IMG/VR virus record: IMGVR_UViG_3300037961_006825
Coordinates: 1-64,000 of that record
Source: a virus
Strand: one strand, 5' to 3'
Length of the DNA stretch: 64,000 bases
The position numbers and the translations under genes were made by a program. Position 1 is the first letter of the stretch; each line of letters opens with the position of its first letter. Below are positions 8,818-27,534 of this stretch, piece after piece. The notes under the pieces are model-generated. The model did not search any database, had not been told where the DNA came from, and worked only from the letters and a program-made list of their open reading frames with translations.

Positions 8818-9291
8818 ATGAAATGTATTCTAATACTTTTTATACCTATTTTATGTTTTGGAAGTGAAATAGTTTTTCAATTTAAATCTCCTACATTTAA
8901 CGGGGTAGGTTATTCAGCTCACGAATTAGCTAAAGAGCAAATTACTTTTAACAGAAAGAAAAGTATAGCAGATGAGTTAGAAGCTATAGCTTTACAAGCT
9001 CAATTAGCAGAAGATAGATCAGCTTTAAATACTTTTTTGTCAAATGTTCAAGCAAGAATTTATTCTGAATTAGCTAAGCAAGTAACTGAGCAATTATTTT
9101 CAGATGACGGAGCTGAATCAGGTACTTTTACTTTAGAAGGTAATCAAATTACTTGGTATAAATCAGCAGATGATAATATTGTATTAACTGTAGCAGATCT
9201 AATAGCTGGTACAACTACTGAAATTATTATACCAGTTGGTACATTATTTATACCGTTAGAAACAACTACAGGTACTACAGGTGATGATTAA
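8818..9291 (+). CDS. csgF: CsgF-like curli assembly protein
   Basis: 157 residues with a signal peptide (cleavage after about residue 15, FCFG-SE) and the CsgF start IVFQFKSPTFNG, the region that in characterised CsgF inserts into the CsgG pore. The middle helix and beta-rich C-terminus (TWYKSADDNIVLTVAD) also match. In bacteria CsgF sits at the CsgG secretion channel and couples secretion to nucleation of amyloid on the surface. It directly precedes csgG and overlaps it by a few bases. The C-terminal tail is Thr/Gly-rich. Confidence 0.88.
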   Translation: MKCILILFIPILCFGSEIVFQFKSPTFNGVGYSAHELAKEQITFNRKKSIADELEAIALQAQLAEDRSALNTFLSNVQARIYSELAKQVTEQLFSDDGAESGTFTLEGNQITWYKSADDNIVLTVADLIAGTTTEIIIPVGTLFIPLETTTGTTGDD

Positions 9292-10135
9292 AAATTTAAT
9301 TTTAGCATTTAGTTTATTTTTTATTGCAGGGTGTGTTTCAACACCAACTTATAATAGTCCTTATATTCAAAGACCACCTTATTTAATTGAACAAGGTGAA
9401 ATGAAAAAAATGGAAAAAGCTCCTATATATGTTGCTGTTTATAAATTTACTGATTTAACCGGTCAAAGAAAATCTACAGATAATTTTGCAAGTTTTTCTT
9501 CTGCAGTAACTCAAGGAGGTGAAGCTTGGGTAATTGAATCATTAATGGAAGCTGGTAATGGTCAATGGTTTAAAGTAGTAGAAAGAGCAGGTTTAGCTAA
9601 TCTACTAAATGAAAGAAATATAATTAAAAATACCCAAGAAGATTTTTCTGATAAACCTCCTCAAATAAAACCTTTATTATATGCAGGTATATTAATTGAA
9701 GGGGGAATTATTTCATATGAAAGTAATATTGTATCTGGCGGAGCAGGTGCTAGTTATTTAGGTATAGGTCTCTCAAAACAATACAGAAAAGATAATGTTA
9801 CAGTATCAATGAGAATGGTTAGTACTGTGTCGGGGGAAGTATTACTATCATCAACAGTAAGTAAAACTATTTTAAGTGTAGGTTTAGGTGGTACTTTATT
9901 CAAATATTTTGATACAGATAAATTAGGTTTAGGTGATTTTAATGAATATGGTGAAGCTGAAATAGGTTTTGCAAGAAATGAAAGAGTTTCAATGGCAACA
10001 AGAAAAGCTATAGATGCGTGTATAATTGATTTAGTATTACAAGGTCACGATGCTAAATTATGGAAATTATTAGAACCAATTCCAGAGCCAGAAGTTGAAC
10101 CTATTTTAGATTTGAAATCAAATAAAAGTAAGTAA
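9284..10135 (+). CDS. csgG: CsgG-like curli secretion channel lipoprotein
   Basis: CsgG forms a nonameric outer-membrane pore that secretes curli subunits. The lipoprotein signal LILAFSLFFIAGC has a clear lipobox. The body has CsgG features: IYVAVYKFTDLTGQ, a WFKVVERAGLANLLNER block, the IKPLLYAGILIEGGI region and VTVSMRMVSTVSGEVL. Length fits the family (about 277-285). I start it at ATG 9284; an in-frame GTG at 9281 is immediately upstream. It overlaps csgF and is followed by the curlin-like gene. No csgE is seen, so periplasmic gating may differ or be host-supplied. Confidence 0.93.
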   Translation: MIKNLILAFSLFFIAGCVSTPTYNSPYIQRPPYLIEQGEMKKMEKAPIYVAVYKFTDLTGQRKSTDNFASFSSAVTQGGEAWVIESLMEAGNGQWFKVVERAGLANLLNERNIIKNTQEDFSDKPPQIKPLLYAGILIEGGIISYESNIVSGGAGASYLGIGLSKQYRKDNVTVSMRMVSTVSGEVLLSSTVSKTILSVGLGGTLFKYFDTDKLGLGDFNEYGEAEIGFARNERVSMATRKAIDACIIDLVLQGHDAKLWKLLEPIPEPEVEPILDLKSNKSK

Positions 10136-10139
10136 TTTA

Positions 10140-10147
10140 TATAAATA
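10140..10147 (+). promoter_or_regulatory. Late promoter TATAAATA of the curlin-like gene
   Basis: Perfect late box ending 5 bases before ATG 10153. It would give extra, leaderless transcription of the curlin-like, FecR and cyclase genes. Confidence 0.72.
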
Positions 10148-10152
10148 CTTAT

Positions 10153-10959
10153 ATGAAGAAAATTACATTTATATCAATATTAGCGTTAGTTACCTCGTTA
10201 GCATATGCAAATAACGAGATTTACTTAGAACAGGAAGGTACAACAGGTACTTTTAATATTACTCAAATCGGTTCATCAAATAGAATCGGTCAATCAACTG
10301 ACATTTCAACAATTAAAGGTAATGATAGTATCTTTAATTTATCTCAATTAGGTAATAGTAATGCATTAGACATCAATTGGGATGGTAAAGAAACTACTTT
10401 TGATCTTTATATTGAAGGTGATGGTAATACACAAGACTTAGTAGTTACAGGGGATGGTAATGATTTTGATAATGTTATTTTAGGTAATAATAACTCTTTA
10501 ACAGTTTCAAAAGACCCAACTTCTGACGATGCTTCAAGTATTTCAGATCAAACATTTAATAATTATATTATTGGTGATAGTAACTCTTTAGATTTTTATC
10601 TTGATTCGAATGTTAATGCTGTAGTTGATATTACAATTGCAGGTAGTAGTAATGATTTAACATCAATTCAAGAAGGTGGTAACTTAGGAGTAGGTCATTC
10701 ACAAACACTTGAATTACAAGGTAGTGGTAATACAGTAGAGTTAGTACAAAGTGGTTCAGAATCTCAAACATTAGAATTAACTCACTACGGTCATGACACA
10801 ACATTTACAATTATTCAATCAGATGGAACGTATACAGCTGGTTTAGAAGGTGCTAATGTAATAAGTAATTTTGATGGAAGTTATTCAGCAGTTTATGCAC
10901 AACCTGGTTTCTTACTTGGCTCAGTACCTGAAGCAACAGCCGGTGCTGACGGTAACTAA
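10153..10959 (+). CDS. Curlin-like amyloid repeat protein
   Basis: 268 residues. Signal peptide MKKITFISILALVTSLAYA, then imperfect repeats of about 20-25 residues of the type FNITQIGSSN, FNLSQLGNSN, LELQGSGNT and VELVQSGSES, resembling the Q-x-G-x-x-N curlin repeats of CsgA/CsgB. With csgF and csgG immediately upstream, this is the likely secreted substrate. The repeats are more degenerate than in E. coli CsgA and the C-terminus (YAQPGFLLGSVPEATAGADGN) is not repeat-like, so whether it forms fibrils is unproven. Predicted extracellular. Confidence 0.82.
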   Translation: MKKITFISILALVTSLAYANNEIYLEQEGTTGTFNITQIGSSNRIGQSTDISTIKGNDSIFNLSQLGNSNALDINWDGKETTFDLYIEGDGNTQDLVVTGDGNDFDNVILGNNNSLTVSKDPTSDDASSISDQTFNNYIIGDSNSLDFYLDSNVNAVVDITIAGSSNDLTSIQEGGNLGVGHSQTLELQGSGNTVELVQSGSESQTLELTHYGHDTTFTIIQSDGTYTAGLEGANVISNFDGSYSAVYAQPGFLLGSVPEATAGADGN

Positions 10960-11872
10960 ATCTTTAATTTTATTTTTCTTCATTTGTTTAACCTCTTCTG
11001 CTGCTGGTTCAGTTGGAGAGGTTTTCCATCAAACAAGACAAGCTCAAATTACTAGAGGAGCAGATAAAATTTTAACTGAAGTAGGTACTGAAGTTGAAAT
11101 GGGTGATAAAATAGAAACATTAAAAGGTAGTATCACTATAGTATTCGTTGATAAAACTGAGGTAACTATATCAGAATATTCAAAACTTATAATAGATGAA
11201 TTTGTATATGATGCTAATAGTAATAAAGGAAAAATTAATTTAAAAGCAGGTTTAGGTAAATTAAAATATACTTCAGGTATAATGGCTAATAAAGAAAATA
11301 TTAGAATAACGACTCCTACTGCATCAGTTTCTGTTAGAGGTACTGATTTTGAAACTACTGTAAATGAAGCTGGCTCAAGTACTTTTACATTACTACCTTC
11401 AATAGCTGCTGATGGGTCAACGTATGTTGGAGTTATTGAAGTTTTTAATGCAACCGGTGCTGTTGTATTAGATACTGCTTTCGAAGTAACTACTGTATCA
11501 TCATCTTATACACCACCTACTCCTCCAGTAATTAACAGAGCAAGATTAAATGAAGCTATAGAAAAAAGAGATAATCAAAATGAAGAAATAAATGAAACCG
11601 AATCAGTAGATGATGAAGAATTAGATTTAGATAGTGAAAAAGACGCTTTAGATGAATCTTTAATACAGTTAATGGAAGAAGATAATTCAAATGGATTATT
11701 TTATGAAGAAGATGACAAAGCAATATTTGAATCTGTAGATGGAGAGAATAAAGTTAAATTAATAGTAGATAAAGATTCAAATGTCTCACTAAAATATGAT
11801 AATAAAGGAGTTATAACTGAAGGTAATCACAACAGTGGTGGTAACGTAATTATAAATATTATACAACAATGA
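10943..11872 (+). CDS. FecR-domain protein
   Basis: A signal peptide (KSLILFFFICLTSSAAG) precedes a FecR domain: GDKIETLKGSITIVFVD, TEVTISEYSKLII, the LKAGLGKLKYTSG block and ITTPTASVSVRGTDF. After it come an acidic Glu/Asp-rich region and a C-terminal VIINIIQQ segment. Secreted or periplasmic. I prefer the GTG at 10943, because it places the signal peptide at the N-terminus and reduces the overlap with the curlin-like gene to 17 bases; an in-frame ATG at 10871 would add a non-signal extension. In bacteria, FecR-domain proteins are often encoded beside CHASE2-cyclases, as here. A ligand-sensing role for the cyclase is inference. Confidence 0.8.
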   Translation: MLTVTKSLILFFFICLTSSAAGSVGEVFHQTRQAQITRGADKILTEVGTEVEMGDKIETLKGSITIVFVDKTEVTISEYSKLIIDEFVYDANSNKGKINLKAGLGKLKYTSGIMANKENIRITTPTASVSVRGTDFETTVNEAGSSTFTLLPSIAADGSTYVGVIEVFNATGAVVLDTAFEVTTVSSSYTPPTPPVINRARLNEAIEKRDNQNEEINETESVDDEELDLDSEKDALDESLIQLMEEDNSNGLFYEEDDKAIFESVDGENKVKLIVDKDSNVSLKYDNKGVITEGNHNSGGNVIINIIQQ

Positions 11873-13911
11873 AGTTAAAAAAACTAAAACCATTTTTATG
11901 GTGTATGTTTATTGCATTAATATTTTCTGCAATAAGAATATACGATCCATACCCGGTAGAAATAATTAGACTTAAAGGTTTAGATTTTTATCAAAGGCAA
12001 CAAGAAGCAAAAATATCTCAAGAAATTAGTATTGTAGAAATAGATGAAGCAAGTTTAGAGCAATATGGTCAGTGGCCTTGGAAAAGAGATATTTTATCTA
12101 ATGGTATAATAAAAGCATTTGAAAATAATGCAGCTTTAGTAGTATTACCAATATTATTTGCTGAAGAAGATAGACTAGGTGGTGATGAATTTTTTATACA
12201 AACAATACAAAATTATCCTGTAGTTACTTCGCAATCAGCTTCATTGAAAGGTAAGGGTAAAGTAGTACCAAGAGGTATATCTACTATTGGTACGGGGTTA
12301 TATAATTGGTTATATGACTATCCAGCAGGTATAGGACCGTTAGATAGTATAGGTAAATATTCAGCAGGGGTAGGTATGCTTTTAACAGCTCCAGAGTTAG
12401 ATGGCGTTGTGAGAAGGCTACCTTTACTTATACAAATTAATGGAGAACCTTACCCTACAATACCTTTAGAAGTTTTACGATTATTCGGAGGTGAACAATC
12501 TTATCAGGTAAAAGTTGATGAAATGGGAATAAATAAAGTTAGAGTATTAGGTGTAAATACTATTGATACTGACCAACATTCTCGAGTTTGGATAAACTTT
12601 AATAATGAATTTAATAAAATATCATTCATAGATAATGATTGGACAAGTTTAGAAAATAAGATTGTTGTAATTGCTTTAACAGCTGAAGGATTATCTAACT
12701 CAGTTGCAACACCAATTAAGGTTAGCAATGGTCATGAATTAAATATGCAGGTTTTACAAATGTTAATTGACGGCAATACTTTAAATAGACCAGTTGACGC
12801 AACTATAAATGAAGTTCTTATAACTTTAGGTATAAGTTTAATTTTAACTTTAGGTGCATTATTTTTATTATATTATATAAATGTATTTTTATTACTTATT
12901 ACAGTAATTTTATTACCTTATACAGGGTTTTACCTCTTTAATAACTATAATTTACTTTACGACTATACATATCCTTTATATTCAACATTTATAATTTTTA
13001 CAATAGCTATTTTCTTTAGATTTATTCATGAATTTAAAGGTAGAATGTTAATAAAAAAACAATTTGAACATTATCTTGCCCCTGAAATAGTTAAAAAACT
13101 TCAAAAGAATCCTGATATGTTAAAATTAGGAGGTGATACACAGGACTTAACTATTTTATTTTCTGATATCAGAGGGTTTACTACTATAAGTGAGCAATTC
13201 AAAGATAATCCACAAGGATTAACTGATTTAATTAATAGATATCTTACACCTATGACTCAAATAGTTATGGAATCAGGCGGTACTATTGACAAGTATATTG
13301 GAGATGCTTTAATGGCGTTTTGGAATGCACCTATACCAGAAGATAAGACGTCACATAGAATAAAAGCTATAGAAGTTGCAATAAAAATGCAATCTGAGTT
13401 GGAAAAACTTAATATACAATTAGTAGAAGAAGGTAAAAAGGAACTTGCAATAGGTATTGGTATTAATACTGGAACAGTTGTGGTAGGTAATATGGGATCT
13501 GATCAAAGATTTGATTATACTTGCTTAGGAGATGCTGTAAATTTATCAGCTAGACTTGAAGGGCAAACTAAATCATATGGCGTGGGTATATTATTAGGTG
13601 AAGAAACTATAAAACATATTGAAGATAAATTTAAATTTATTGAGTTAGATAAAATTGCAGTGAAGGGTAAAAAAGAAGGTAAATATGTATATACAGTTTT
13701 AGATAAATTTAACCATACTTTACATAATGCATTTTTAGAGTACTATAAGAATAGAAAATGGAAACAAGCTTTATTGACAATAGAGAAGATTTTTGATAAA
13801 GGTACACAGCTTGAGTTTTACTATAAAGAAATGGAAAAAAGAGTTGTTGATTTAGCTAAAAATGATCCAGGTGAAGATTGGGATCAAGTATATAGATTAA
13901 AGACAAAATGA
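11869..13911 (+). CDS. Membrane class III adenylate cyclase with CHASE2 sensor
   Basis: 680 residues: N-terminal transmembrane helix (about 8-24), periplasmic CHASE2 domain (about 30-305, with VEIDEASLEQYGQWPW and LVVLPILFAEED), three transmembrane helices (about 312-385), then a cytoplasmic class III nucleotidyl cyclase domain (about 425-600). Catalytic residues visible: metal-binding Asp in LFSDIRGFTT and in YIGDALMAFW, the specificity lysine in TIDKYIGD, and Asn/Arg in DAVNLSARLEG. The active site looks complete and most like bacterial adenylate cyclases. ATG overlaps the FecR stop (ATGA). A membrane cyclase in a phage is highly unusual. cAMP rather than cGMP as product is inferred from motif type. 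Confidence 0.93.
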   Translation: MKLKKLKPFLWCMFIALIFSAIRIYDPYPVEIIRLKGLDFYQRQQEAKISQEISIVEIDEASLEQYGQWPWKRDILSNGIIKAFENNAALVVLPILFAEEDRLGGDEFFIQTIQNYPVVTSQSASLKGKGKVVPRGISTIGTGLYNWLYDYPAGIGPLDSIGKYSAGVGMLLTAPELDGVVRRLPLLIQINGEPYPTIPLEVLRLFGGEQSYQVKVDEMGINKVRVLGVNTIDTDQHSRVWINFNNEFNKISFIDNDWTSLENKIVVIALTAEGLSNSVATPIKVSNGHELNMQVLQMLIDGNTLNRPVDATINEVLITLGISLILTLGALFLLYYINVFLLLITVILLPYTGFYLFNNYNLLYDYTYPLYSTFIIFTIAIFFRFIHEFKGRMLIKKQFEHYLAPEIVKKLQKNPDMLKLGGDTQDLTILFSDIRGFTTISEQFKDNPQGLTDLINRYLTPMTQIVMESGGTIDKYIGDALMAFWNAPIPEDKTSHRIKAIEVAIKMQSELEKLNIQLVEEGKKELAIGIGINTGTVVVGNMGSDQRFDYTCLGDAVNLSARLEGQTKSYGVGILLGEETIKHIEDKFKFIELDKIAVKGKKEGKYVYTVLDKFNHTLHNAFLEYYKNRKWKQALLTIEKIFDKGTQLEFYYKEMEKRVVDLAKNDPGEDWDQVYRLKTK

Positions 13912-14864: not shown

Positions 14865-14878
14865 TATAAATATTTATA
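14865..14878. promoter_or_regulatory. Palindromic bidirectional late promoter
   Basis: TATAAATATTTATA is a perfect palindrome containing TATAAATA on both strands. Plus copy (14865-14872) is 5 bases from the Nudix ATG. Minus copy (14871-14878) is 31 bases from the holin-like ATG, giving that mRNA a leader with an SD. Confidence 0.7.
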
Positions 14879-15300
14879 TGCAAATGCCAAGTTTCAAACT
14901 CTTATTCGAACGACCTAAAAATGATAGTAATTTATCAGCTAAAACTATAGCAACTTATAGGAAAAGAATATTGCTTCTTAAAAATAAAGATAACTCTTAC
15001 GAATTACCTGGTGGTCACGTAAAGATAGGAGAGCCTATAATTGCAGGAGCTACAAGAGAGTTTTTTGAAGAAACTGGTATTCAATTATATAAATTAAAAC
15101 TAATAAAAAAATCAAAAGAACGTGCATTATTTTATGCAAGCTTAAATACTAATATAGTTAAATTAAGTGATGAGCATGTTGGGTATGTATTTGTAAAACC
15201 AAGTGAAGTATTCATATATCCTTTATCACCTAAAGCTAGAAATGATTTAAAAATAATTAAAAAAGAGAAAAAACAAAAAAAAGATGAAATGGAATTTTGA
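14878..15300 (+). CDS. Nudix hydrolase
   Basis: 140 residues with a full Nudix box GGHVKIGEP(x)6REFFEETGI at about 45-68. Nudix enzymes hydrolyse nucleoside diphosphate derivatives; the substrate cannot be told from sequence (oxidised dNTP, ADP-ribose, RNA cap and others are possible). The N-terminus MQMPSFKLLFE resembles the leading segments of nearby small genes. The lysine-rich C-terminus overlaps the next ORF by 17 bases. Confidence 0.9.
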   Translation: MQMPSFKLLFERPKNDSNLSAKTIATYRKRILLLKNKDNSYELPGGHVKIGEPIIAGATREFFEETGIQLYKLKLIKKSKERALFYASLNTNIVKLSDEHVGYVFVKPSEVFIYPLSPKARNDLKIIKKEKKQKKDEMEF

Positions 15301-15652
15301 TATATTAGTTGAAAGTATTTTACTAGAAGCTGATCCTAAAAAAGGTACAGGTAAAAAACCTAAAGGTTCGGGTAGAAGATTATATACTGATGAAAATCCA
15401 AAAGATACAGTAAGTGTTAAATTTAGTACAGCTTCAGATATAAGACAAACTTTAAGTAAACAATCTTTTAAAAATAAATCTCATGCAAGACAATCTCAAA
15501 TAATAAATTTAATTCATCAAAGGGTAAGAGCTGCTAAAGGTAGAACAAAAGACCCTGTTAAGAAAAAAAGACTTAACGCTGCTTATAGTTATATAAGTAA
15601 AAGAAAAGAAGCAAGTAAACGTAAAACGCAACGGATGAAAAAAAATAAATGA
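15284..15652 (+). CDS. Basic protein with possible capsid-targeting leader
   Basis: 122 residues, strongly basic (Lys/Arg-rich throughout), so probably nucleic-acid binding. The N-terminus NFDILVESILLEADPKK resembles T4 internal-protein targeting peptides, with LLE-A matching the gp21 protease rule (L/I-x-E followed by A or G). If cleaved, it would be an internal head protein packed with DNA. A domain GSGRRLYTDENPKDTV is of a kind seen in other marine T4-like phages; function unknown. Overlaps the Nudix gene upstream and the next gene by 4 bases. Confidence 0.7.
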   Translation: MKWNFDILVESILLEADPKKGTGKKPKGSGRRLYTDENPKDTVSVKFSTASDIRQTLSKQSFKNKSHARQSQIINLIHQRVRAAKGRTKDPVKKKRLNAAYSYISKRKEASKRKTQRMKKNK

Positions 15653-15849
15653 TTAACTTTCAAACATATTTCGAAAATTATGCTGACGGTAAACGTAAAG
15701 GTAAAAGTAGACCTGGTAGAGTTAAGCGCGCTGGTGCTAGCTGTAAAGGGTCAGTATCTGAACTAAGACGTAAAGCTAAAAAATATGGTGGTGAAAAAGG
15801 TAAGATGTATCATTGGTGTGCTAATATGAAAGGTGGTAAAAAGAAATGA
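15649..15849 (+). CDS. Small basic protein, two cysteines
   Basis: 66 residues, about one third Lys/Arg. Motifs GKSRPGRVKRAGASC and MYHWCANMK are of a type I associate with conserved marine T4-like phage proteins. N-terminus MINFQTYFENYADG resembles neighbouring leaders. Likely DNA-binding or virion internal; not proven. Overlaps the genes on both sides by 4 bases. Confidence 0.7.
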   Translation: MINFQTYFENYADGKRKGKSRPGRVKRAGASCKGSVSELRRKAKKYGGEKGKMYHWCANMKGGKKK

Positions 15850-16469
15850 GTTACGATTCAGTTACAGAATTATTTTTAGAAAAATATGAAGGTATTAAAC
15901 CAGTTAAATTACCTTATGCGCTTGATGCTTTAGAGCCTTATATAGATGCTGAAACGATGAATTTACATTTTAATAAACACTATAAAGGTTACGTTAAAAA
16001 ATTAAATGCAGCTTTACCAGCTACAAATAAACAAGATTTATTATCAATTATTAAAAAAGCTAAATCTAAAAAAGATGCTATTCGTAACAATGCTGGCGGT
16101 GCTTATAATCATCAGTTATTTTGGTTTATGATGTCTCCAGATAGAAAACCTATCTCAGGTGAAATAAAAGATCTTATTGAAAAACAATATAAAAGTTTCG
16201 ATAACTTTAAAGCTAAATTCGTTGAAGAAGCTTTAGCCCATTTCGGGTCAGGTTGGTTATGGTTAGTTAAAAAAGGAAATAAACTTGAAATGATATCTAC
16301 AGATAATCAAGATAATCCTTTAATGACTTCTGATGTAACTATCCTTTTAGGAGTAGATGTTTGGGAGCATGCTTATTACAAAAAGTATGGACCAAATAGA
16401 GAAAAATATCTTAAGCAATTTTTAAAAATTGTAAATTGGGATTATTGTAATCAGCAATTAACTCAATAA
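15846..16469 (+). CDS. Superoxide dismutase, Mn-type
   Basis: Fe/Mn-family superoxide dismutase, disproportionating superoxide to H2O2 and O2. All four metal ligands are visible: H41 (NLHFNKH), H89 (GGAYNHQLFW), D171 and H175 (GVDVWEHAYY). G85 and Q155 (STDNQDNPLM) are at the positions that distinguish Mn from Fe enzymes, favouring Mn. The core begins at residue 20 (VKLPYALDALEPYIDAETM); residues 1-19 (MSYDSVTELFLEKYEG...) are an extra leader. Last gene of the Nudix operon, overlapping by 4 bases. Phage-borne SODs are rare. Cytoplasmic or packaged (inference). Confidence 0.95.
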   Translation: MSYDSVTELFLEKYEGIKPVKLPYALDALEPYIDAETMNLHFNKHYKGYVKKLNAALPATNKQDLLSIIKKAKSKKDAIRNNAGGAYNHQLFWFMMSPDRKPISGEIKDLIEKQYKSFDNFKAKFVEEALAHFGSGWLWLVKKGNKLEMISTDNQDNPLMTSDVTILLGVDVWEHAYYKKYGPNREKYLKQFLKIVNWDYCNQQLTQ

Positions 16470-18626: not shown

Positions 18627-19460
18627 ATGTCAAAGATTGGATTAGGAATAGTTACCTGTGACCGACCAGATTTTTTATCAAAATGTATAGAAGGCATTGA
18701 TCTTGACCTATTTCATCGTCGCGTTATAGTAAATGACGGTAAAATGCCAGTAAAACATAATCGTTTTAATATTATTAATAATGAAGAAAATTTAGGGGTT
18801 GGCAAGTCAAAAAATAAAATATTACAAGATTTATACAATAATGATTGCGATTATATCTTTTTACTTGAAGATGATATGATTGTACACGACAATATAGTAT
18901 TTCAAAAGTATATAGATGCATCTAAAAGATCAGGTATACAACATTTCAATTACGGTCCTGGCTCTCCATTCAATAGAAAACAAAATGTAGCTTTTGATTT
19001 GCATAATCGACATGAATTAGATCAGCATTCTGATCCTGTACCACGAAAAATTATTGATTATGGTAATAATGTAAAGGTTTCACTTTTTACCCATACAGTT
19101 GCAATGTTTTCGTTTTTTACGCGTAAGTGTATAGAAGAATGTGGATATTTAGATGAAGATTTTTATAACGCGTGGGAGCATGTAGATCATACTTATAGAA
19201 TAGCAAAAGCTGGGTTACACCCTCCATTTTGGTGGTTTGCTGATATTTATAATAGTCACGATTTAATTAGTGAAGCTCCGCAAGCAATTGATAAATCCTC
19301 TATTGCAGAAAATAAAGAACAGTGGGAAAAAAACGTTTTTGGTGGTATAGAAATATATAAAAAGAAACATGGACATGTACCTAATCAACCTCCTTTAGTT
19401 AATGAATCTGAAATACCAAGTATTTTAAAGGAAATAAAAAATAAATATGCAACAAGATAA
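18627..19460 (+). CDS. Family 2-type glycosyltransferase
   Basis: 277 residues with a GT-A fold pattern: GLGIVTCDRPDFL start, nucleotide-sugar region NLGVGKSKNKIL, metal-binding EDD in IFLLEDDMIV (about 85) and a late acidic/His region AWEHVDHTYRI. Donor and acceptor unknown. First gene of a surface-glycan cassette running to 28382; overlaps the next by 14 bases. Confidence 0.87.
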   Translation: MSKIGLGIVTCDRPDFLSKCIEGIDLDLFHRRVIVNDGKMPVKHNRFNIINNEENLGVGKSKNKILQDLYNNDCDYIFLLEDDMIVHDNIVFQKYIDASKRSGIQHFNYGPGSPFNRKQNVAFDLHNRHELDQHSDPVPRKIIDYGNNVKVSLFTHTVAMFSFFTRKCIEECGYLDEDFYNAWEHVDHTYRIAKAGLHPPFWWFADIYNSHDLISEAPQAIDKSSIAENKEQWEKNVFGGIEIYKKKHGHVPNQPPLVNESEIPSILKEIKNKYATR

Positions 19461-20367
19461 ACCAAAAGATCCTTCTATTAGTATTGTAATGACTCATTTT
19501 AATAGAGCTCATCTATTAGAAAGAACATTACATACTTTCACGTATAATAAAACAAGAGATTTTGAAATAGTTATTGTAGATGATGCAAGTGAGACTGATG
19601 AGTGGGAAAAGTTAATAAATTTAATTAGTGAATATAAACAACATTTTAAGTTTAGAGTTTTTAGAATTAGAGAAAATAGTAAGTGGTATTCCAATCCATG
19701 TATACCTTTTAATATTGCATTAAAACAGGCTAAAGGTAAAATTATTATAATACAGAATCCAGAATGTTTACATGTTGGCAATATTATTGATTATGTGCAT
19801 AAACGACTTGATGCATTTGATTCCGACGAAGCTATTCCACATAGAAAATTTATGTCTTTTGCTTGTTATAATATTGATAAGAATCAAACCGAGTCATTAG
19901 CTCCTAACCCTACACCAGAAGAGGTTTTAAAAACTATTAACCCGGTAAATAATAATCCTATTACACATTGTGAAGAACCGGGTTGGTATGATCATTCTAA
20001 ATATAGACCTTTAGCATATCATTGGTGCAATGCAATAGCAAATGAAGATTTTAAAAAATTAAAATATTTCGATGAGAGATATGCTTTTGGTACAGCTTAT
20101 GATGATGATGAATTAGCATGGAGAGTTAAAAAACTATTATACTCATATAATGAAGGTATTAATAATCCTTTAGTAGTGCATCAATGGCACGGTTTGGGTA
20201 ATTATTATAAAAATCCTAATCAAGCAGAAAATCAAATGAAACAAGATTACAATCACAAGTTTTATGAAACAATTACTAAAAGTGAACAAAGAGGAAAATA
20301 TAATCCTGATAATATAAGAAATGATTTATCTGAAAAAGTAGAATATGATATAGTATCAGGTGTATAA
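19447..20367 (+). CDS. Family 2 glycosyltransferase
   Basis: 306 residues. GT2 start SISIVMTHFNRAHLLERTL and VIVDDASETDEW are clear. The usual DxD position reads IIIQNPEC, so the metal site is unusual, but the C-terminal AYDDDELAWRV has the acidic catalytic motif. Adds a sugar in the same glycan pathway as its neighbours; specificity unknown. Confidence 0.9.
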   Translation: MQQDKPKDPSISIVMTHFNRAHLLERTLHTFTYNKTRDFEIVIVDDASETDEWEKLINLISEYKQHFKFRVFRIRENSKWYSNPCIPFNIALKQAKGKIIIIQNPECLHVGNIIDYVHKRLDAFDSDEAIPHRKFMSFACYNIDKNQTESLAPNPTPEEVLKTINPVNNNPITHCEEPGWYDHSKYRPLAYHWCNAIANEDFKKLKYFDERYAFGTAYDDDELAWRVKKLLYSYNEGINNPLVVHQWHGLGNYYKNPNQAENQMKQDYNHKFYETITKSEQRGKYNPDNIRNDLSEKVEYDIVSGV

Positions 20368-20370
20368 ATT

Positions 20371-21420
20371 ATGAAAAAAACAATAGTTACAGTTACAGGT
20401 ATTAGACCAGACTTTATACGTATGTCAGAAGTTTTTAAAAAACTTGATAAAGATTTTAATCATATATTAGTACACACAGGTCAGCATTATGATAAACTTC
20501 TTTCAGATGTATTTTTTGATGAACTTGATATAAGAAAACCTGATTATAATTTAAAGATTGGAAAACCGGGCGCTGAACATTTTCACCAATCAGCAGATTT
20601 ATCTGTTAAATTAATTGAATTACTAAGAAAGATAGGTAATGTAGATTGTGTAGTATTTTTAGGTGATTCAAATTCTGTATGTATAGCTCCTCAACTTAAA
20701 AAGGAAGGTTATAAAATAGCTCATATAGAAGCAGGTATGAGATCATATGATAAAAGAATGCTCGAGGAAGTTAATCGAGTAGTTTGCGATCATTGTAGCG
20801 ATTTTCTTTTCGTGTATCATGATAATTATAAAATAAAACTTTTCTATGAAAAAATAAATGAGCATATCTATACAGTGGGGAATACTATTGTTGAAGTTTT
20901 GAAAAAAGTTCATAAAAATAAGAAAAAGAAAACTTCTGATTATATCATTCTTGATATACATAGACCAGAGAATTTTAAATATAGAGATAGACTTATACAT
21001 ATATTAGATTTTGCAGATAATTTTAATTTACCGGTAAAGTTTTTAAACTTTAAACGAACTATGCAATATATAAAAGATTTTGAAATAGATATGAGTCTAT
21101 ATAAAAATATAAAAATTATTGATTTATTATCATATAAAAAATTTATTGATTTGCAGTATAATGCATATTGTATAATTAGTGATTCTGGTACAGCTCAAGA
21201 AGAACCGGCACTACTTAAAACTCCTGTTATAGTACCTAGAGATTATGCTGAAAGACCTGAATCAGTTGAATATGGATGTTCAATTGAAGTTAATGCTAAT
21301 AAAATTATACAGGTAGAAGCAGCAAAAAGTTTTATTGAAAATTATAACCCTAATATTGAATGGTTAGGAAATGGAAACACTAGTCAATTAATAGTAAATA
21401 AATTAAAAGAAATTTTATGA
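20371..21420 (+). CDS. wecB: UDP-N-acetylglucosamine 2-epimerase
   Basis: 349 residues, WecB/NeuC-type epimerase making UDP-ManNAc (or releasing ManNAc). Motifs: VTGIRPDFIRMSEV, LVHTGQHYDKLLSD, VVFLGDSNSV, HIEAGMRSYD, EVNRVVCDH and the C-terminal SDSGTAQEEPALLKTPVI. Catalytic acidic and histidine residues appear kept. ManNAc supply would feed surface polysaccharide or sialic-acid-type glycans. ATG follows the previous stop by 3 bases. Confidence 0.93.
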   Translation: MKKTIVTVTGIRPDFIRMSEVFKKLDKDFNHILVHTGQHYDKLLSDVFFDELDIRKPDYNLKIGKPGAEHFHQSADLSVKLIELLRKIGNVDCVVFLGDSNSVCIAPQLKKEGYKIAHIEAGMRSYDKRMLEEVNRVVCDHCSDFLFVYHDNYKIKLFYEKINEHIYTVGNTIVEVLKKVHKNKKKKTSDYIILDIHRPENFKYRDRLIHILDFADNFNLPVKFLNFKRTMQYIKDFEIDMSLYKNIKIIDLLSYKKFIDLQYNAYCIISDSGTAQEEPALLKTPVIVPRDYAERPESVEYGCSIEVNANKIIQVEAAKSFIENYNPNIEWLGNGNTSQLIVNKLKEIL

Positions 21421-22208
21421 ATAGAAAAAAGATAATAGGCTTCGGTCAGATGAGAAATGAGAGCGAGAATGGTAACCTAGAAAATTGGTTTAAATGTATG
21501 GAGCCTTGTGATCATATCTATATTTTTGATCAAGCGAGTACAGATAATAGTAAAGAAATCTATGAAAAATATAAAGATAGAACTACTGTTATATATAGTC
21601 CGACTAATAGATTTACCGAAGAACTATTATGTAAAGATGAATTATATAGATTAATGTTAAAGGAACATCCTGATGTAGATTGGGTATTATGGTTAGATGG
21701 GGATCTATTACTTGATGGAAGATTATTAGTAGATGATAATCTACAAAAATTATGTCATAAACTTGATGAAGCGAAAGTAGACCTTCCTTGTTTTGGTCAT
21801 TATAATTTATGGAGATCAGATAAATGGTATAGGAAAGATAATGCTTACCATGATTTACATATGCATTGGTTCCCTTTATGGGGTCAACCGCAAAATAAAT
21901 GGTTTGATAGACAACCTGGATTACATCACGGACAAGTACCTCAAGGTACAACTAAACATGCACAGGTTGATGTTAACGTGATTCATTTCGGGTTTAAAAA
22001 TGAAGAAAAAATTGTTAATAAATATTTACACTATAAAAGTTTAGGGCAATCTGGATGGGCATTAGATAGATTAGTTGACGAAAGTACACTAGATGTCGGT
22101 GAAGTCCCGAGTCATATATATCCGAAATGGTTTAAAATAGAAGACGATCAATCACCTTTAAATAAACCAAAATTAATAGATAAATACAAAGAAAAAATAT
22201 TTAGTTAA
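21417..22208 (+). CDS. Glycosyltransferase, family 2-like
   Basis: 263 residues. GFGQMRNESENGNLENWFK and YIFDQASTDNSKEI are the nucleotide-binding start; LWLDGDLLLDG (about 98) carries DGD in place of DxD. Rich in Trp, His and Tyr in the acceptor half. ATG overlaps the epimerase stop (ATGA). Likely same glycan pathway. Confidence 0.85.
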   Translation: MNRKKIIGFGQMRNESENGNLENWFKCMEPCDHIYIFDQASTDNSKEIYEKYKDRTTVIYSPTNRFTEELLCKDELYRLMLKEHPDVDWVLWLDGDLLLDGRLLVDDNLQKLCHKLDEAKVDLPCFGHYNLWRSDKWYRKDNAYHDLHMHWFPLWGQPQNKWFDRQPGLHHGQVPQGTTKHAQVDVNVIHFGFKNEEKIVNKYLHYKSLGQSGWALDRLVDESTLDVGEVPSHIYPKWFKIEDDQSPLNKPKLIDKYKEKIFS

Positions 22209-22210
22209 TT

Positions 22211-23707
22211 ATGAATATTACTACTTTAGGTCATGCAGGTCTATGGATAGAAACAAAAGATCTTAAAGTTTTATGCGATCCATGGCATTTTAAAAACCCA
22301 GCTTTTTTTAATACCTGGCATGTTTATCCGGATAATAGTAACGTAGATTGGGATCATATACTTGAAAAAACCGATATTGTTTTTGTATCTCATGTACATA
22401 AAGATCATTTTGATGAAAAAATATTAACTGATTTATTAGAAAAAAATAATGACGTAAAAGTATTATTACCAGATTTTAGATTCTGCGAACTTAAAAAAGA
22501 TTTCGAAAAAATTGGATATAAAAATTTTATTATAAAAGAATACAAAAAGGGAGATACCACAATAGTAACGTATCCGTCTGAAACTATCGATAGGGAAAGA
22601 GAAGATAGTAGTATTTGTGTAAATGATGGTAGTAAAACTTTTTTAAATTTTAATGATTCTACTATAACCCCTGAACATAAAGATAATATAATAAAAAGAT
22701 TCAAAAAAATTGACTGGGCTGCTGGTCAATTTTCCGGAGCTAACTGGTGGCCTTCATGTTATGAATATAATGAAGATAAAAAACTTGAATTAATTTTATC
22801 ATATAAAAAACGCAAGATTGATCATTATAAAAGAATGATTGATTATTTAGGGGTTAAAAAAATGATACCAATAGCTGGACCTCCTTGTTTTCTTCAAAAT
22901 AATTTAAATGAATTAAACTATAGAGAAAATAAGAAAAGTATATTTTTTGATAATTGGGATGTACCTGAATTTAATTTAATGAAACAAGTATATAGAACAT
23001 TACCTGGTGATAGATATACTTTTTCATCCATAAAAGATATTAAAGATAGACCATTCGATAAAGAGGAATTTATTAAAAATAATTTATACGATTTTAATTA
23101 TGATGTATCAAACGATGAAATAAAAAAAATTGATAAAAAAATATTTTCTTTATTTAGCGATTTATTATCAAATAATACCTGGTTAAGCAAGTATATTAAA
23201 TGTAAAATTTACTTAAATGTAGAAAATTATAAAACTTTTTGTTTAGATTTTAAAAATGCAAAAGTATCTACAGAAGACGAAATTATTAAAAAAGGAATTT
23301 ATTATATTATAAATTTTAAACAAAAAGTAATTTACGATTTACTTTTTAAAAATATAACTGATTGGGAAGAAGCATTTTTAAGTTGTACATGTACATTTGA
23401 AAGAAAACCTGATTTATATAATCCATGGATATTATCATTTTTTAGAAATCTTAATAATGATAGATTACAAAAAATATATGAAATAACCCAATCCAGTGAA
23501 GTATTAGAAGGTAAAATGATAGTTGGTGATTATGAGGTAAATAGGTATTGCCCTCATCAACAATATGATTTAATGTATCATAGTAAAATAGATCTTGAAA
23601 ATGGGACTATACAGTGTTTAGGACACGGTTGGAAATGGGACTTAGAAACCTGTGAAGGTATAAATTGTGCTGCAAAAATTATTTGTAATAGAATAATACG
23701 TAAGTAA
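22211..23707 (+). CDS. Metallo-beta-lactamase fold protein fused to a Rieske domain
   Basis: 498 residues. The N-terminal half is a UlaG-like MBL fold: GHAGLWIETKDLKVLCDPW, then metal motif SHVHKDHFD (about 59-67). The C-terminus is a Rieske [2Fe-2S] site: CPH near 448-450 and CLGH near 470-473, followed by GWKWDLETCEG. The same two modules occur in CMP-N-acetylneuraminate hydroxylase (CMAH), there with the Rieske part first. A mono-oxygenase or hydroxylase acting on a sugar nucleotide is plausible given the flanking epimerase and glycosyltransferases. Substrate unproven. Confidence 0.88.
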   Translation: MNITTLGHAGLWIETKDLKVLCDPWHFKNPAFFNTWHVYPDNSNVDWDHILEKTDIVFVSHVHKDHFDEKILTDLLEKNNDVKVLLPDFRFCELKKDFEKIGYKNFIIKEYKKGDTTIVTYPSETIDREREDSSICVNDGSKTFLNFNDSTITPEHKDNIIKRFKKIDWAAGQFSGANWWPSCYEYNEDKKLELILSYKKRKIDHYKRMIDYLGVKKMIPIAGPPCFLQNNLNELNYRENKKSIFFDNWDVPEFNLMKQVYRTLPGDRYTFSSIKDIKDRPFDKEEFIKNNLYDFNYDVSNDEIKKIDKKIFSLFSDLLSNNTWLSKYIKCKIYLNVENYKTFCLDFKNAKVSTEDEIIKKGIYYIINFKQKVIYDLLFKNITDWEEAFLSCTCTFERKPDLYNPWILSFFRNLNNDRLQKIYEITQSSEVLEGKMIVGDYEVNRYCPHQQYDLMYHSKIDLENGTIQCLGHGWKWDLETCEGINCAAKIICNRIIRK

Positions 23708-23727
23708 TTGATCTTCAATTTTTAGTT

Positions 23728-23735
23728 TTTAAATA
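23728..23735 (+). promoter_or_regulatory. Late-type box TTTAAATA
   Basis: Ends 6 bases before ATG 23742, in a 34-base gap inside the glycan cassette. A weaker match, but at standard spacing. Confidence 0.35.
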
Positions 23736-23741
23736 ATAGTA

Positions 23742-24488
23742 ATGATAAAGAAAAACGTTGAAATAATTACCTTAATTTATAAAAGTGTAGACTATTTACG
23801 TTTCATTGTTGAACAAATGAAATCAGATAGATGCAAAGCAGAAGGTTGGGATGTAGGTATAAGAGTTGTAGCTAATGATGCAACGCCTGAAGTTTTAGAT
23901 GAACTTAAAAAATTAGATATACCTTATACTATTCATAATAACTTTTGGACTAATGAATTTTATCTTAATAAAGTATATAGAGCATATAATTATGCAGTAA
24001 TAACTAGTGAGTATGATAATGTAGTTTTAATTAATTCAGATTATGTTATCGGTGAAAACTTTTTAACTAATTTATTAAAACATCACGATGGGGTAAATAT
24101 ACCTTGTGGTAGACTTATTGAAAGTGGTAAGATGCCTTCAGGTGAAAATGCTATTAATATGGGTCAGAATGATTTTGGTAGATCTCCAAAAAATATTGAT
24201 AAAGAAGGTTTTGACAACTGGGTTAAAAATAATGCAGAAGATAAAACTTTACCAGGTGGGTTGTTTATGCCAGTTGTATTAGAAAGAAAAACATTTATCG
24301 ACAGTTGCATGTACCCTTTAGGTAATATATATCATAACGGTATAGGTACTGCAAACTTTGGTGGAAAATATGTGCAGTCAGGTGATGATTTTTATTTTAA
24401 AAGAGTTTTAGCTAAAAGAGGTATGAAACATATAACTGTTTGCGATTCATGCGTCTATCACATTATAGAGGGTGAAAAAGACGAATAA
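23742..24488 (+). CDS. Glycosyltransferase-like protein (GT-A)
   Basis: 248 residues. Start VEIITLIYKSVDYLRFIVEQM and VVLINSDYVIG (in place of DxD) are GT2-like, and the late AKRGMKHITVCDSCVYHI segment fits a catalytic C-terminus. Weaker match than its neighbours, but the context supports glycan assembly. Confidence 0.78.
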   Translation: MIKKNVEIITLIYKSVDYLRFIVEQMKSDRCKAEGWDVGIRVVANDATPEVLDELKKLDIPYTIHNNFWTNEFYLNKVYRAYNYAVITSEYDNVVLINSDYVIGENFLTNLLKHHDGVNIPCGRLIESGKMPSGENAINMGQNDFGRSPKNIDKEGFDNWVKNNAEDKTLPGGLFMPVVLERKTFIDSCMYPLGNIYHNGIGTANFGGKYVQSGDDFYFKRVLAKRGMKHITVCDSCVYHIIEGEKDE

Positions 24489-24991
24489 TGATTAGACATG
24501 AAGAATTTATAGAAGCTATTGCAGTTATTAAAAGACCTAAATCATATTTAGAATTAGGATTATACCAAGGTGATACTATCAATAGAATATCAAAATATTT
24601 TAAAAATAAAGAAAATATTGTTGGGGTTGATATGCTTCTTGAACCTATAATAGATGGTACGTTTCATAAAATGTCTACTGATGATTTTTTTAAACAAAAT
24701 AAAAAAAACTTTGATATGATTTTTATTGATGCTGATCACAGATATGAAAGTGTTAAAAAAGATTTTAAAAACTCTATAAAAATTTTAAACCCAGGTGGTG
24801 TAATTTTATTACATGATACTGACCCAGAGAATGATAATTTATTTAATGACGGTTATTGTGGCGATTGTTATAAAATAGTAAAAGAATTAGAAGAGGATGA
24901 AAGATATAATATAACAACATTACCTATCGAAGAAGCTGGGTTATCAATTGTAACAAGAAAAAATGAAACGAGAACACAAATAAGAAAATGA
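24488..24991 (+). CDS. SAM-dependent methyltransferase (class I)
   Basis: 167 residues, Methyltransf_24/cephalosporin-hydroxylase-like: YLELGLYQGDTINRI (SAM site), IVGVDML, FDMIFIDADHRYESVKKD and GVILLHDTDPEND. Such enzymes often O-methylate sugars; a sugar target is inferred from position. Overlaps the preceding gene by one base and the following by 4. Confidence 0.87.
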   Translation: MIRHEEFIEAIAVIKRPKSYLELGLYQGDTINRISKYFKNKENIVGVDMLLEPIIDGTFHKMSTDDFFKQNKKNFDMIFIDADHRYESVKKDFKNSIKILNPGGVILLHDTDPENDNLFNDGYCGDCYKIVKELEEDERYNITTLPIEEAGLSIVTRKNETRTQIRK

Positions 24992-25911
24992 AAGGTTGGT
25001 TAGTACACGATTACATGACATGTATACCTAATACTAGAACATTATGGTATGATTTAGTTGATTGGTTACCACATTTAGAAGATAAGTGTAATAATGGAGA
25101 GTTAATGAGACTTCCAGAACATGTTGACCAACTATTAAAGCATAATGAAGAACCAGATTATGTAATCCGCAATGCATCCTATTGGCCTACATATGCTTTT
25201 TCTAAATCTAAAATTATTTCTATTCTCCAAGATTTTAGAGATGAACCAACTCTAAAGCAATGGCAACTTGATGTTTGTAATGGTAGTGATAAAGTTATAG
25301 CAGTTTCTAATTATGTAAAGGAAAAATTTTCTGATGATATTGATAAAGAAAATGTAGAAGTTTTACCTATCGGTACAGATTTTAATTTTTTTAAACCGCA
25401 AGAAGTAGATAATGAGTTTGATATATTACCAAATTCAATTTTATGGATAGGAGATTATAATAATAATCCAAAAGGGTTTGATATATTAAAACAAATAATT
25501 AAAAATACTAACTATAATTTTTGTATAGTTTTAAAATCAAATATAAAATTTGAACATAAACGTATTAGATGTTTCAATAGAATTTCTCATGAAAAATTAG
25601 TTAGAATTATGAACAATTGTAAAGCAGTTTTATGTACTAGCAGAGAAGAAACATTACATTTATCATCAATAGAAGCTGCAGCTTGTAACCTACCAGTTAT
25701 AACATCTAATATAGGAATACATTATAATGTTAAATCAGGTGTATGGGGGGAAAATGTACCAACTTTTGATTATAATGACTATATTACTTCAATAGATAAG
25801 GTTTTTAATAATATAAAAAATTATACACCAAGAGATTATTTTAATGAAAGATATAGTATATCTGCATTAAAAGAAAAATGGTTAAAAATGATTAATGAAG
25901 TTATTGATTAA
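24988..25911 (+). CDS. Family 4 (GT-B) glycosyltransferase
   Basis: 307 residues. GT-B pattern: DKVIAVSNYVKEKF, VLPIGTDFNFFKP, SILWIGDYNNNPKGFDIL (start of the C-terminal Rossmann domain) and the donor-binding SSIEAAACNLPVITS with the E-x7-E type region. Shorter than typical GT4 (350-400). Donor sugar unknown. Confidence 0.88.
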   Translation: MKGWLVHDYMTCIPNTRTLWYDLVDWLPHLEDKCNNGELMRLPEHVDQLLKHNEEPDYVIRNASYWPTYAFSKSKIISILQDFRDEPTLKQWQLDVCNGSDKVIAVSNYVKEKFSDDIDKENVEVLPIGTDFNFFKPQEVDNEFDILPNSILWIGDYNNNPKGFDILKQIIKNTNYNFCIVLKSNIKFEHKRIRCFNRISHEKLVRIMNNCKAVLCTSREETLHLSSIEAAACNLPVITSNIGIHYNVKSGVWGENVPTFDYNDYITSIDKVFNNIKNYTPRDYFNERYSISALKEKWLKMINEVID

Positions 25912-25931
25912 TCGTAAAAGTATACTATAAT
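25904..25931 (+). promoter_or_regulatory. Internal host-type promoter
   Basis: TTGATT (25904-25909, inside the end of the previous gene), 16 bases, TATAAT (25926-25931), 7 bases to ATG 25939. Separately drives the sugar-nucleotide genes. Confidence 0.75.
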
Positions 25932-25938
25932 ATAATAT

Positions 25939-26892
25939 ATGAAAATTTTAGTAGTAGGTGGAGCTGGTTATATAGGCGGATATTTAGTTGATCAACTAAT
26001 TGAAAAAGGTCATGAACCTATCGTATATGATAATATTCTTTATGAAGATCGTTATTTAAAAGATGTACCTTTTATTAGAGGTGATATAAGAGATACGTAT
26101 AAATTAGTTGAAGCTGCTGAAGATTGTGATGTAGTGGTTTTAGCTGCAGCGTTAGTTGGAGACCCAGCTTGTAGTGTTGATAAAAATCTAACTGATAGAA
26201 TTAATTATCAGGCTATTAAAAGAGCTTGTGAAGATTTACCTAAAGATATACATGTTATTTTTATGTCAACTTGTTCGGTATACGGAGCTCAAGACGATGT
26301 ATTAGATGAAGAAAGTAGTACAAATCCTTTAAGTGAATATGCAGTTACTAAGTTAAAAGCTGAAGATCATATTAAAGAGAGAAACGGTACTATCTTTAGA
26401 TTAGGAACGGTATATGGTGTAGGCGATGCAATGAGTAGAATAAGATTAGACTTAGTAGTAAATGTTTTAACTTATAATGCAATAAAGAATGGAAACATAA
26501 CTGTAAACGGTGGAGATCAATGGAGACCTATTATTTCAGTAAAAGATATATCAGGGTATATAATTGAAGCGGCACAAAGAAAACCTAATGATACCTTTAT
26601 TCTCTCTTATGAGAATACTACTATAAAACAATTAGGTGAATTAGTTGTTAAAGAGTTACCTGGTACAGAAATAAAATATACTGAAATATCTTTTCAAGAC
26701 GCACGTAATTATAAAGTATGTGCTAAAAAAGCAGAAGATTATTTTGATTATATGGCAAAATGGTCTCCTGCAGAAGAAATTAAACAGATGGAAAAAATCT
26801 TTAGAGAAGAAAGATTAAAAAATCCGGATGATGAAATTTATAGTAATGGTAAATATCTTGCAGAGTTAAAACGAACAAATGGATTTAATTAA
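25939..26892 (+). CDS. NAD-dependent sugar epimerase/dehydratase
   Basis: 317-residue extended SDR: VVGGAGYIGGYLVDQL (NAD site), the catalytic SEYAVTKLKAE (Y-x3-K) and STCSVYG. Closest in style to GalE/UDP-glucuronate decarboxylase-like epimerases. Acts on a nucleotide sugar for the glycan cassette; exact reaction unknown. Confidence 0.9.
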   Translation: MKILVVGGAGYIGGYLVDQLIEKGHEPIVYDNILYEDRYLKDVPFIRGDIRDTYKLVEAAEDCDVVVLAAALVGDPACSVDKNLTDRINYQAIKRACEDLPKDIHVIFMSTCSVYGAQDDVLDEESSTNPLSEYAVTKLKAEDHIKERNGTIFRLGTVYGVGDAMSRIRLDLVVNVLTYNAIKNGNITVNGGDQWRPIISVKDISGYIIEAAQRKPNDTFILSYENTTIKQLGELVVKELPGTEIKYTEISFQDARNYKVCAKKAEDYFDYMAKWSPAEEIKQMEKIFREERLKNPDDEIYSNGKYLAELKRTNGFN

Positions 26893-27115
26893 TATGAGCG
26901 CGCACTTAAAAGCAATAGTAAAAAAACTAGAAGGCCAGCGAGACATTGAGCTTGCTGATTTAGATACCTACTTAACAAAGCAGGTAGCAATTGGTGAACA
27001 TCCTGATATAGGTGTTGAAATAGAAAAGAAAATTGAAAAAATTGATGAGTTAGATTCAAAAATAGATACAATTCAAAAATATTTTAATAATAGTCAAATG
27101 GAATTATTAGGGTGA
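26879..27115 (+). CDS. Small coiled-coil protein
   Basis: 78 residues, highly charged and helical, predicted coiled coil over residues 40-72. No known domain. ATG 26879 overlaps the previous gene by 14 bases; ATG 26894 (MSAHLKAIV) lies 2 bases after the previous stop and is a good alternative. Confidence 0.6.
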   Translation: MDLINMSAHLKAIVKKLEGQRDIELADLDTYLTKQVAIGEHPDIGVEIEKKIEKIDELDSKIDTIQKYFNNSQMELLG

Positions 27116-27534
27116 ATGAAATAAATGAAATAAAAGGCGGCGTTGCTGTTGATGATAGAGGGTCGGTTAGATTTGTAAATGATTTTGACTTTAAAAATGT
27201 AAAACGCTTTTATCAAGTCAGTAATCATAAAGAAGGTTTTATTAGAGCTTGGCATGGTCATAAAAAAGAAGGTAAGTATGTTTATGTTGCAAAAGGTTCA
27301 GCTTTAATCGGAGCTGTAAAATTAGACGGTACTAATAATCCTCATAAATTTATACTATCATCTCAATCGCCGAAAGTTATTTATATACCACCTGGTTATG
27401 CAAATGGATTTAAAAATTTAGAAGAAGATACCATTGTTCAATTCTTCTCTACTTCAACCTTGGAGGAAAGTTTAGGAGATGATTATCGATATGATCACGA
27501 TCATTGGAATATTTGGGAGGAAGATTATAGATGA
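27112..27534 (+). CDS. RmlC-like cupin (dTDP-sugar 3,5-epimerase family)
   Basis: 140 residues. Cupin core with RmlC-type motifs: FIRAWHGHKKEGKYVYVAKG, YIPPGYANGFKNL and DHDHWNIWEED. RmlC epimerises dTDP-4-keto-6-deoxyglucose, and with the RmlD-like gene next to it a rhamnose-like deoxysugar is likely. Starts with GTG at 27112 overlapping the previous stop; no in-frame ATG fits. Confidence 0.85.
   Translation: MNEINEIKGGVAVDDRGSVRFVNDFDFKNVKRFYQVSNHKEGFIRAWHGHKKEGKYVYVAKGSALIGAVKLDGTNNPHKFILSSQSPKVIYIPPGYANGFKNLEEDTIVQFFSTSTLEESLGDDYRYDHDHWNIWEEDYR

Follow-up and report, generated by a model that had tools for sequence, protein, structure and literature searches.

Four adjacent, overlapping genes of a T4-like phage begin with similar short segments, and a fifth, unlinked gene does so too. 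The question raised by this locus is whether these segments are capsid-targeting propeptides of the T4 kind, so that the proteins behind them would travel inside the phage head. The DNA analysed, here called the window, is a stretch of 64 kb out of a virus record of 74,204 bases, with T4-type head genes encoding gp23 (PF07068), a gp22-like scaffold and gp21 (PF03420). No near DNA match to the record was found in the phage collection searched. The adjacent genes, at 14878, 15284, 15649 and 15846, encode a Nudix hydrolase, a 122-residue basic protein, a 66-residue basic protein and an Fe/Mn superoxide dismutase (SOD); they overlap and appear to form a single operon. The fifth, at 34319, encodes a peptidoglycan hydrolase. 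A previous interpretation of this DNA, made without database searches (the sequence-only reading), had proposed T4-type leaders on all five, with enzymes as cargo. The segments it quoted are all present at the starts of real open reading frames: MQMPSFKLLFE (14878), MKWNFDILVESILLE↓A (15284), MINFQTYFE↓N (15649), MSYDSVTELFLE↓K (15846) and MQTFEEYYNEQMLNE↓G (34319), where the arrow marks the predicted cut.

The T4 capsid-targeting sequence (CTS) is an N-terminal propeptide of 10-19 residues, and mutations in the ipIII leader showed that residues 4 and 7 direct targeting and residues 8 and 10 direct processing (PMC9026906). T4 ipII and ipIII both start MKTYQEFIAE↓A, and SFLTE↓AEIGG occurs around residue 65 of T4 gp23 (NC_000866).

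Our data are best read as leaders of the T4 kind on at least three, probably six, proteins of this phage, belonging to a broader set found across marine T4-like phages. Leaders are probable on the 122-residue protein, the 34319 hydrolase, the SOD and two proteins which the sequence-only reading had missed (encoded at 34821 and 1106), and likely on the 66-residue protein; the Nudix hydrolase, which it had included, is not supported. We think it likely that these leaders are capsid-targeting propeptides cut by gp21 and that their cargo is delivered at the next infection. This reading is supported by the leaders themselves, the presence of gp21, conservation, gene placement and the correlation with the virion proteome of cyanophage S-CREM2.

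Head genes and the cleavage rule

The presumed leader-cutting enzyme, a gp21 prohead protease, is indeed encoded in the window, as had been stated (51091-51759, minus strand; PF03420, E 2e-34). The genes for the gp22-like prohead scaffold (50079-50936, minus strand) and the gp23 major capsid protein (48472-50001, minus strand) adjoin it. The scaffold protein starts with MSDIKTILGE↓A, matching the same cleavage site, and the predicted maturation site of gp23 is CLKE60↓A61. Throughout the clade the gp23 maturation site is mostly [LI]xE followed by A or S (53 distinct gp23 segments, 38 by automatic pattern and the others visibly alike), so the proposed rule of cleavage after L/I-x-E is valid for the clade. 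A gp21-family protease is also encoded in G001, G002, G003, G004 and G007.

Only two of the five proteins fit (L/I)-x-E exactly, 15284 (LLE↓A) and 34319 (LNE↓G), just as had been claimed. At the third position upstream of the cut, the window SOD and 34821 have F (FLE) and 15649 has Y (YFE) in place of L or I; relatives of the SOD and of 34821 have ILE. The predicted leaders comprise 12-15 residues in 15284, SOD, 34319 and 34821, and 9 in 15649. With the T4 IPII/IPIII CTS they share a short hydrophobic N-terminal leader ending in Glu, a gp21 of the same family and basic cargo. The T4 ipIII register, with aromatics at positions 4 and 7 and a hydrophobic residue 8 before E10, is also seen in 34319 and several relatives; F4 and Y7 are present in 34319 and 15649, whereas SOD, 34821 and 15284 follow a 3/6 or other register. 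Unlike the T4 CTS, a second leader form of about 12 residues, M-x-[FYW]-x-x-[LV]...[LI]LxE (SOD, 34821), is out of register.

Proteins of the operon with proposed leaders

The 122-residue protein (15284-15652, plus strand; pI about 11 without the leader) carries MKWNFDILVESILLE at 15284-15328, with a predicted cut between E15 and A16, before ADPKKGTGKKPKGSGRR. Members of its clade read ...LLE↓ADPKKGTGKKPKGSGRRLYTDENP or ILQE↓ADPKK, and stand-alone leaderless homologues start with MADPKVGTGKK or MAKKDPKTGTGKK. The predicted mature N-terminus (E↓ADPKK) is therefore the natural start of the leaderless form. Homologues with a leader had gp23/gp21 alongside in 4/14 cases, as compared to 0/24 for leaderless ones, a comparison confounded by how long the contigs are. 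AlphaFold places the leader in an isolated, low-confidence helix (residues 5-15), with a basic, disordered linker and then a helical domain behind it; a fold search with this model gave no significant match. By tblastn against cultured phages, only two pelagiphages matched.

The SOD (15846-16469, plus strand) has a 12-residue leader, MSYDSVTELFLE, at 15846-15881. Domains PF00081 and PF02777 score above cut-off, the protein aligns to solved Mn-SODs, and H41, H89, D171 and H175, which we take to be the metal ligands, are invariant. Homologues of 50-87% identity retain a leader of 12-14 residues (MNYDELADVILE↓S, MRFSKLSDIILE↓Q, MKQTYDKLTTLILE↓G, MKHNYNKLAALVLE↓S, MSFLSEVNLILE↓K), the consensus among relatives is M(N/K/E)YxxLADLILE↓, and one relative has MNYDKLADLILE. 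Identity is 55% in the leader and 83% in the body; the leader changes faster while its LILE end is kept. Residue 6-8 of the solved SODs aligns to about residue 21 of the window protein, so the viral SODs are about 15 N-terminal residues longer than cellular ones, and a cut after the leader Glu would take off 12 of these. In four loci the SOD gene lies directly behind gp21-gp22-gp23. SOD fusions also occur, as proteins of about 360, 510 and 700 residues, in apparently freshwater phages; SOD is the first domain of the fusion of about 510 residues, preceded by [LI]xE↓MKxIGIExLPY, and gp21 was present in 4/12 contigs of the phages with SOD fusions.

The 66-residue basic protein (15649-15849, plus strand) has the leader MINFQTYFE (15649-15675), followed by a module reading ENYADGK...KSRPGRVKRAGASCKGSV...MYHWCANMK. 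Its relatives are encoded by a separate gene and keep the leader form (MINFSTYFEN, MITFSTYFLEN, MNSFIQFFSEN). By tblastn, no match was found in cultured phages. The core is a module of about 58 residues that terminates many unrelated phage proteins; in three loci it is fused to the 122-residue family. Cleavage here is uncertain, since the final E-N belongs to the module; FE↓N is a doubtful site, E-N being conserved in fusions with unrelated partners. The basic module (ending MYHWCANMKGG in its longer form) was seen in at least 548 viral stretches, usually as the C-terminal end of diverse phage proteins.

The peptidoglycan hydrolase and further candidates

The NNPGNIR peptidoglycan hydrolase of 172 residues (34319-34837, plus strand) begins with the leader MQTFEEYYNEQMLNE (34319-34363) and continues with a signal-peptide-like stretch, GKIGKALATGALAASMMAGTAQGA (34364-34435). 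The family pattern is MQxFxEYY..(M/V)(L/I)xE↓GK(I/F)xxALATGALAAGL..A-x-A, then NNPGNIR. From its sequence, the stretch after the leader looks like a Sec signal. The protein might thus be an ordinary late secreted endolysin, with an unusual N-region and then a Sec signal (GKIGKALATGALAAGL..A-x-A), which lyses the cell from within, and the conservation of the hydrophobic stretch with its A-x-A-like end in the family agrees with this. An acidic N-region of 15 residues with a conserved (L/I)xE↓GK is, however, unlike that of a signal peptide, and internal virion proteins, T7 gp16 among them, contain the domain, so that we regard the endolysin as a serious but rather unlikely explanation. Among the relatives of 34319 are internal virion protein D of the T7 gp16 type, PM2 P5 and head proteins of epsilon15, and the occurrence of its domain in internal virion proteins of other phages counts in favour of a capsid leader. 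T7 gp16 has a homologous peptidoglycan hydrolase domain and is ejected from the head; it is a large core protein without a leader, whereas 34319 has 172 residues with a leader and a signal-like stretch. If capsid leader and Sec signal both work, we hypothesise packaging and injection of the hydrolase, with export to the cell wall as the last step.

A 67-residue basic protein (34821-35024, minus strand) with the leader MKFNGLVDKFLE↓D (34989-35024) overlaps the end of 34319 on the opposite strand; its relatives read MxFNxxVxxILE↓DF(K/R)AP. The lysine-rich protein of 565 residues at 1106-2803 (plus strand) has a candidate leader, MKNENLFNQIEE↓A, and its counterparts by gene order start with MSNFLKLIQE↓A and MGNFLKTINE↓A. 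Domain searches gave no family match for 15284, 15649 and 34821; their likeness to the T4 internal proteins IPI-IPIII is one of basic charge only, and it is by charge alone that the mature proteins are compared.

The Nudix hydrolase

The Nudix hydrolase (14878-15300, plus strand) had also been proposed as virion cargo, and this we could not uphold. Its relatives start with MSMLRKLFKQRP and MSPPNFTKESER and have no conserved hydrophobic or LxE leader, and T4 nudE has none either. One might still suppose a packaged Nudix protein with a degenerate leader, because the gene is the first of the operon, overlaps leadered genes and encodes FKLLFE, which has the shape. Six other versions nevertheless have neither a leader nor a conserved Glu at the N-terminus, and T4 nudE near ipIII also lacks a leader; we judge a degenerate leader improbable. 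As its N-terminus is not conserved among relatives, Nudix was rejected as cargo; it is probably part of the operon and outside the cargo. The T4 nudE gene, close to ipII/ipIII (T4 62000-70000) and without a clear leader, resembles the Nudix gene standing here beside leadered basic proteins.

Leader frequency in the record and its relatives

Similar N-termini could also arise by chance and composition, because AT-rich phage genes often start with MKF or MKN and hydrophobic residues, and the tripeptide [LI]xE is frequent. A strict rule was applied (E at position 8-17, L or I two residues before it, hydrophobic, no proline), whereby thresholds and residue classes were set after some of the sequences had been viewed. 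In the record 5/96 genes match, as compared to 2.6% for internal Met and 3.8% for shuffled N-termini; the excess within this contig alone is barely above chance, as the chance explanation would have it. In the relatives, the rule is matched by 22/230 (G001), 15/130 (G002), 14/84 (G005) and 11/76 (G006) genes, that is 10-17% against 3-5% by chance, with far fewer hits at shuffled N-termini and internal Met of the same proteins, and adjacent leadered genes often stand in runs. A genome-wide excess of the motif, which the sequence-only reading had named as a check, is hence marginal in the record and clear in the relatives. MEGFIRFMTE at 8211 matches the strict ipIII register and was taken as a false positive (hydrophobic, probably a membrane protein).

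A position model was trained on eleven leader families taken from relatives, with all families of the five originally proposed proteins left out. Its training leaders were picked by eye among rule hits, so that figures are inflated for the relatives which supplied them; the five proteins, G003 and S-CREM2 are independent of the training set, and 1106 is not, as its counterparts by gene order are included. By this model 15284 is the best-scoring gene of the record (p=0.0003), followed by 34319 (p=0.0026) and 1106 (p=0.005). The window SOD reaches p=0.10, the SOD of relatives 0.0003 (G004), 0.003 (G003) and 0.012 (G001), while the Nudix and 66-residue proteins give nothing. Below p 0.01 there are 10-13 genes as compared to 0.8-1.3 expected in G002, G005 and G006, which supplied training leaders and are inflated, and 12 as compared to 1.9 expected in G003, which supplied none. 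An ipIII-register pattern, drawn up after the S-CREM2 N-termini had been viewed, is found in 10/856 genes of the marine clade against 1/2822 internal Met.

Virion proteomes

The strongest test of the leader idea is provided by S-CREM2, for which a virion proteome has been published (PMC10665884, Table 3). The five best-scoring of its 217 ORFs (score 3 or more) are all virion proteins detected by mass spectrometry outside the named structural set, and 0/165 undetected ORFs reach this score (Fisher p 4.6e-5). They are ORF154, a cytidylyltransferase (MKNFSSFLTE↓AD), ORF155, ORF13 (MKDLHSFLTE↓QD), ORF6, a SAM hydrolase (MKDFDSFLEE↓FD), and ORF209, an endolysin. The cut-off of 3 is one of three tried; at 1 the counts were 6/28 vs 3/165 (p 3.5e-4), and at 5 they were 3/28 vs 0/165 (p 0.003). 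Overall, virion proteins outside the structural set do not score higher (Mann-Whitney p 0.57), since tail and most other virion proteins carry no leader. ORFs 6, 14, 136 and 154 match the ipIII-register pattern and all are in virions (p 3.7e-4, with the pattern chosen as described above). The leader thus predicts virion presence in S-CREM2, and its form is conserved across SOD homologues; chance is largely refuted by the S-CREM2 test, and we consider it very improbable. The proposal of T4-type leaders with enzymes as cargo is accordingly supported for 15284, 34319 and SOD, on comparative data and the S-CREM2 proteome, and fairly well for 15649.

Purified virions of cyanophages S-CREM2, S-SM1, S-SZBM1 and S-SCSM1 contain virion-associated enzymes, namely a cytidylyltransferase/NMNAT, a SAM hydrolase and an APH-like kinase, and those of the first three have N-termini with the same kind of leader as described here. 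The cytidylyltransferase family GC190 was detected in S-SM1 virions (PMC3037559), and its members start with MKKFSAFLNE↓A (S-SM1), MKSFFQFLSE↓A (S-SM2) and MKKFSAFLTE↓A (P-SSM7); GC119 of P-SSM7 starts with MKTYSQFIEE↓G. The homologues of S-PM2 and HTVC008M, as annotated, have no leader. S-SZBM1 (proteome in PMC9146016) is a weak second case: its detected cytidylyltransferase starts with MRFRQFIIE↓A, and its best-scoring ORFs, 192 (MKTFKQYITE↓A) and 191, were undetected in virions. In the available text of the publications on these virion enzymes the leader is not mentioned, and there the authors of the S-CREM2 and S-SCSM1 studies leave open whether the enzymes are packaged or left over from purification (PMC10665884, PMC9602691). 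A literature search lacking many subscription papers gave no paper that connects capsid targeting with the cargo of cyanophages. A leader which matches the T4 targeting sequence and marks virion proteins in S-CREM2 offers a testable answer to the question of packaging, and a way to predict the injected proteins of uncultured marine phages.

Proposed route and known systems

A role outside the capsid, for example as inner-membrane or host-target binding helices with an incidental LxE end, would suit the short hydrophobic helices of the models (low confidence) and the hydrophobic, probably membrane-bound 8211 protein, but the leaders share register and cleavage residues with the tested CTS of T4, are encoded alongside gp21 and, in S-CREM2, mark virion proteins, which makes it a very unlikely one.

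For capsid targeting the following route is proposed. Late in infection the short leader helix, hydrophobic and in most cases acidic, would bind the prohead scaffold core and carry its protein inside. Activated gp21 would then cut after Glu at (L/I)-x-E↓, with F or Y at the third position upstream apparently tolerated, and the freed cargo would remain beside the DNA in the head. This cargo, made up of DNA-associated basic proteins, the peptidoglycan hydrolase and the SOD, would enter together with the DNA when the next cell is infected, and the delivered SOD would clear superoxide as infection starts. In contrast to the T4 internal proteins, the proposed cargo here includes enzymes, and it is from the genes that we infer targeting, packaging, cleavage, delivery and cargo function in this phage.

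If true, the packaging of a superoxide dismutase in a phage head would amount to a novel form of protection early in infection. The closest precedent that we found is in a chlorovirus, a group for which we know of no gp21 leader system. Chlorovirus PBCV-1 encodes an SOD and packages it in the virion (PMC7019647), but this is a Cu/Zn enzyme of an unrelated family in a virus of a eukaryotic alga; the literature searched contained no example of a phage with such an enzyme, a superoxide dismutase of any family, inside its head.

In a broader form, marine T4-like phages may use cut-off leaders of two or more registers genome-wide, by which about a dozen proteins of diverse kinds would be packed into the head and delivered into the cell. 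Superoxide dismutase, nucleotidyltransferases and kinases would be among them, as would a peptidoglycan hydrolase that has an export signal as its second one; the leader alone would then let the injected proteome of uncultured phages be predicted from sequence. We see the case for this extension as evenly balanced. In G015 (295 kb, gp21 present) clustered families start with MKKIIRLTESDLxxxVRRVISE, MNLQENIxRIKEMMGLxxE or MKDLIRKILRE, and these are possibly capsid leaders of another lineage.

Other genes in the window

A curli-type secretion cluster at 8818-13911 comprises CsgF (PF10614), CsgG (PF03783), FecR and a CHASE2-adenylate/guanylate cyclase, together with a curlin-like repeat protein recognised by eye and without a Pfam match. 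A paper on pelagimyophages (PMC7029224) uses the word curli 23 times; a phage curli cluster is probably already known, and it hints at a SAR11 host. Glycosyltransferase-like and sugar-nucleotide genes, recognised by eye, fill a long stretch at 18627-28382, and downstream of them a glutamine amidotransferase/asparagine-synthase-like gene (33079-34332) overlaps the start of 34319.
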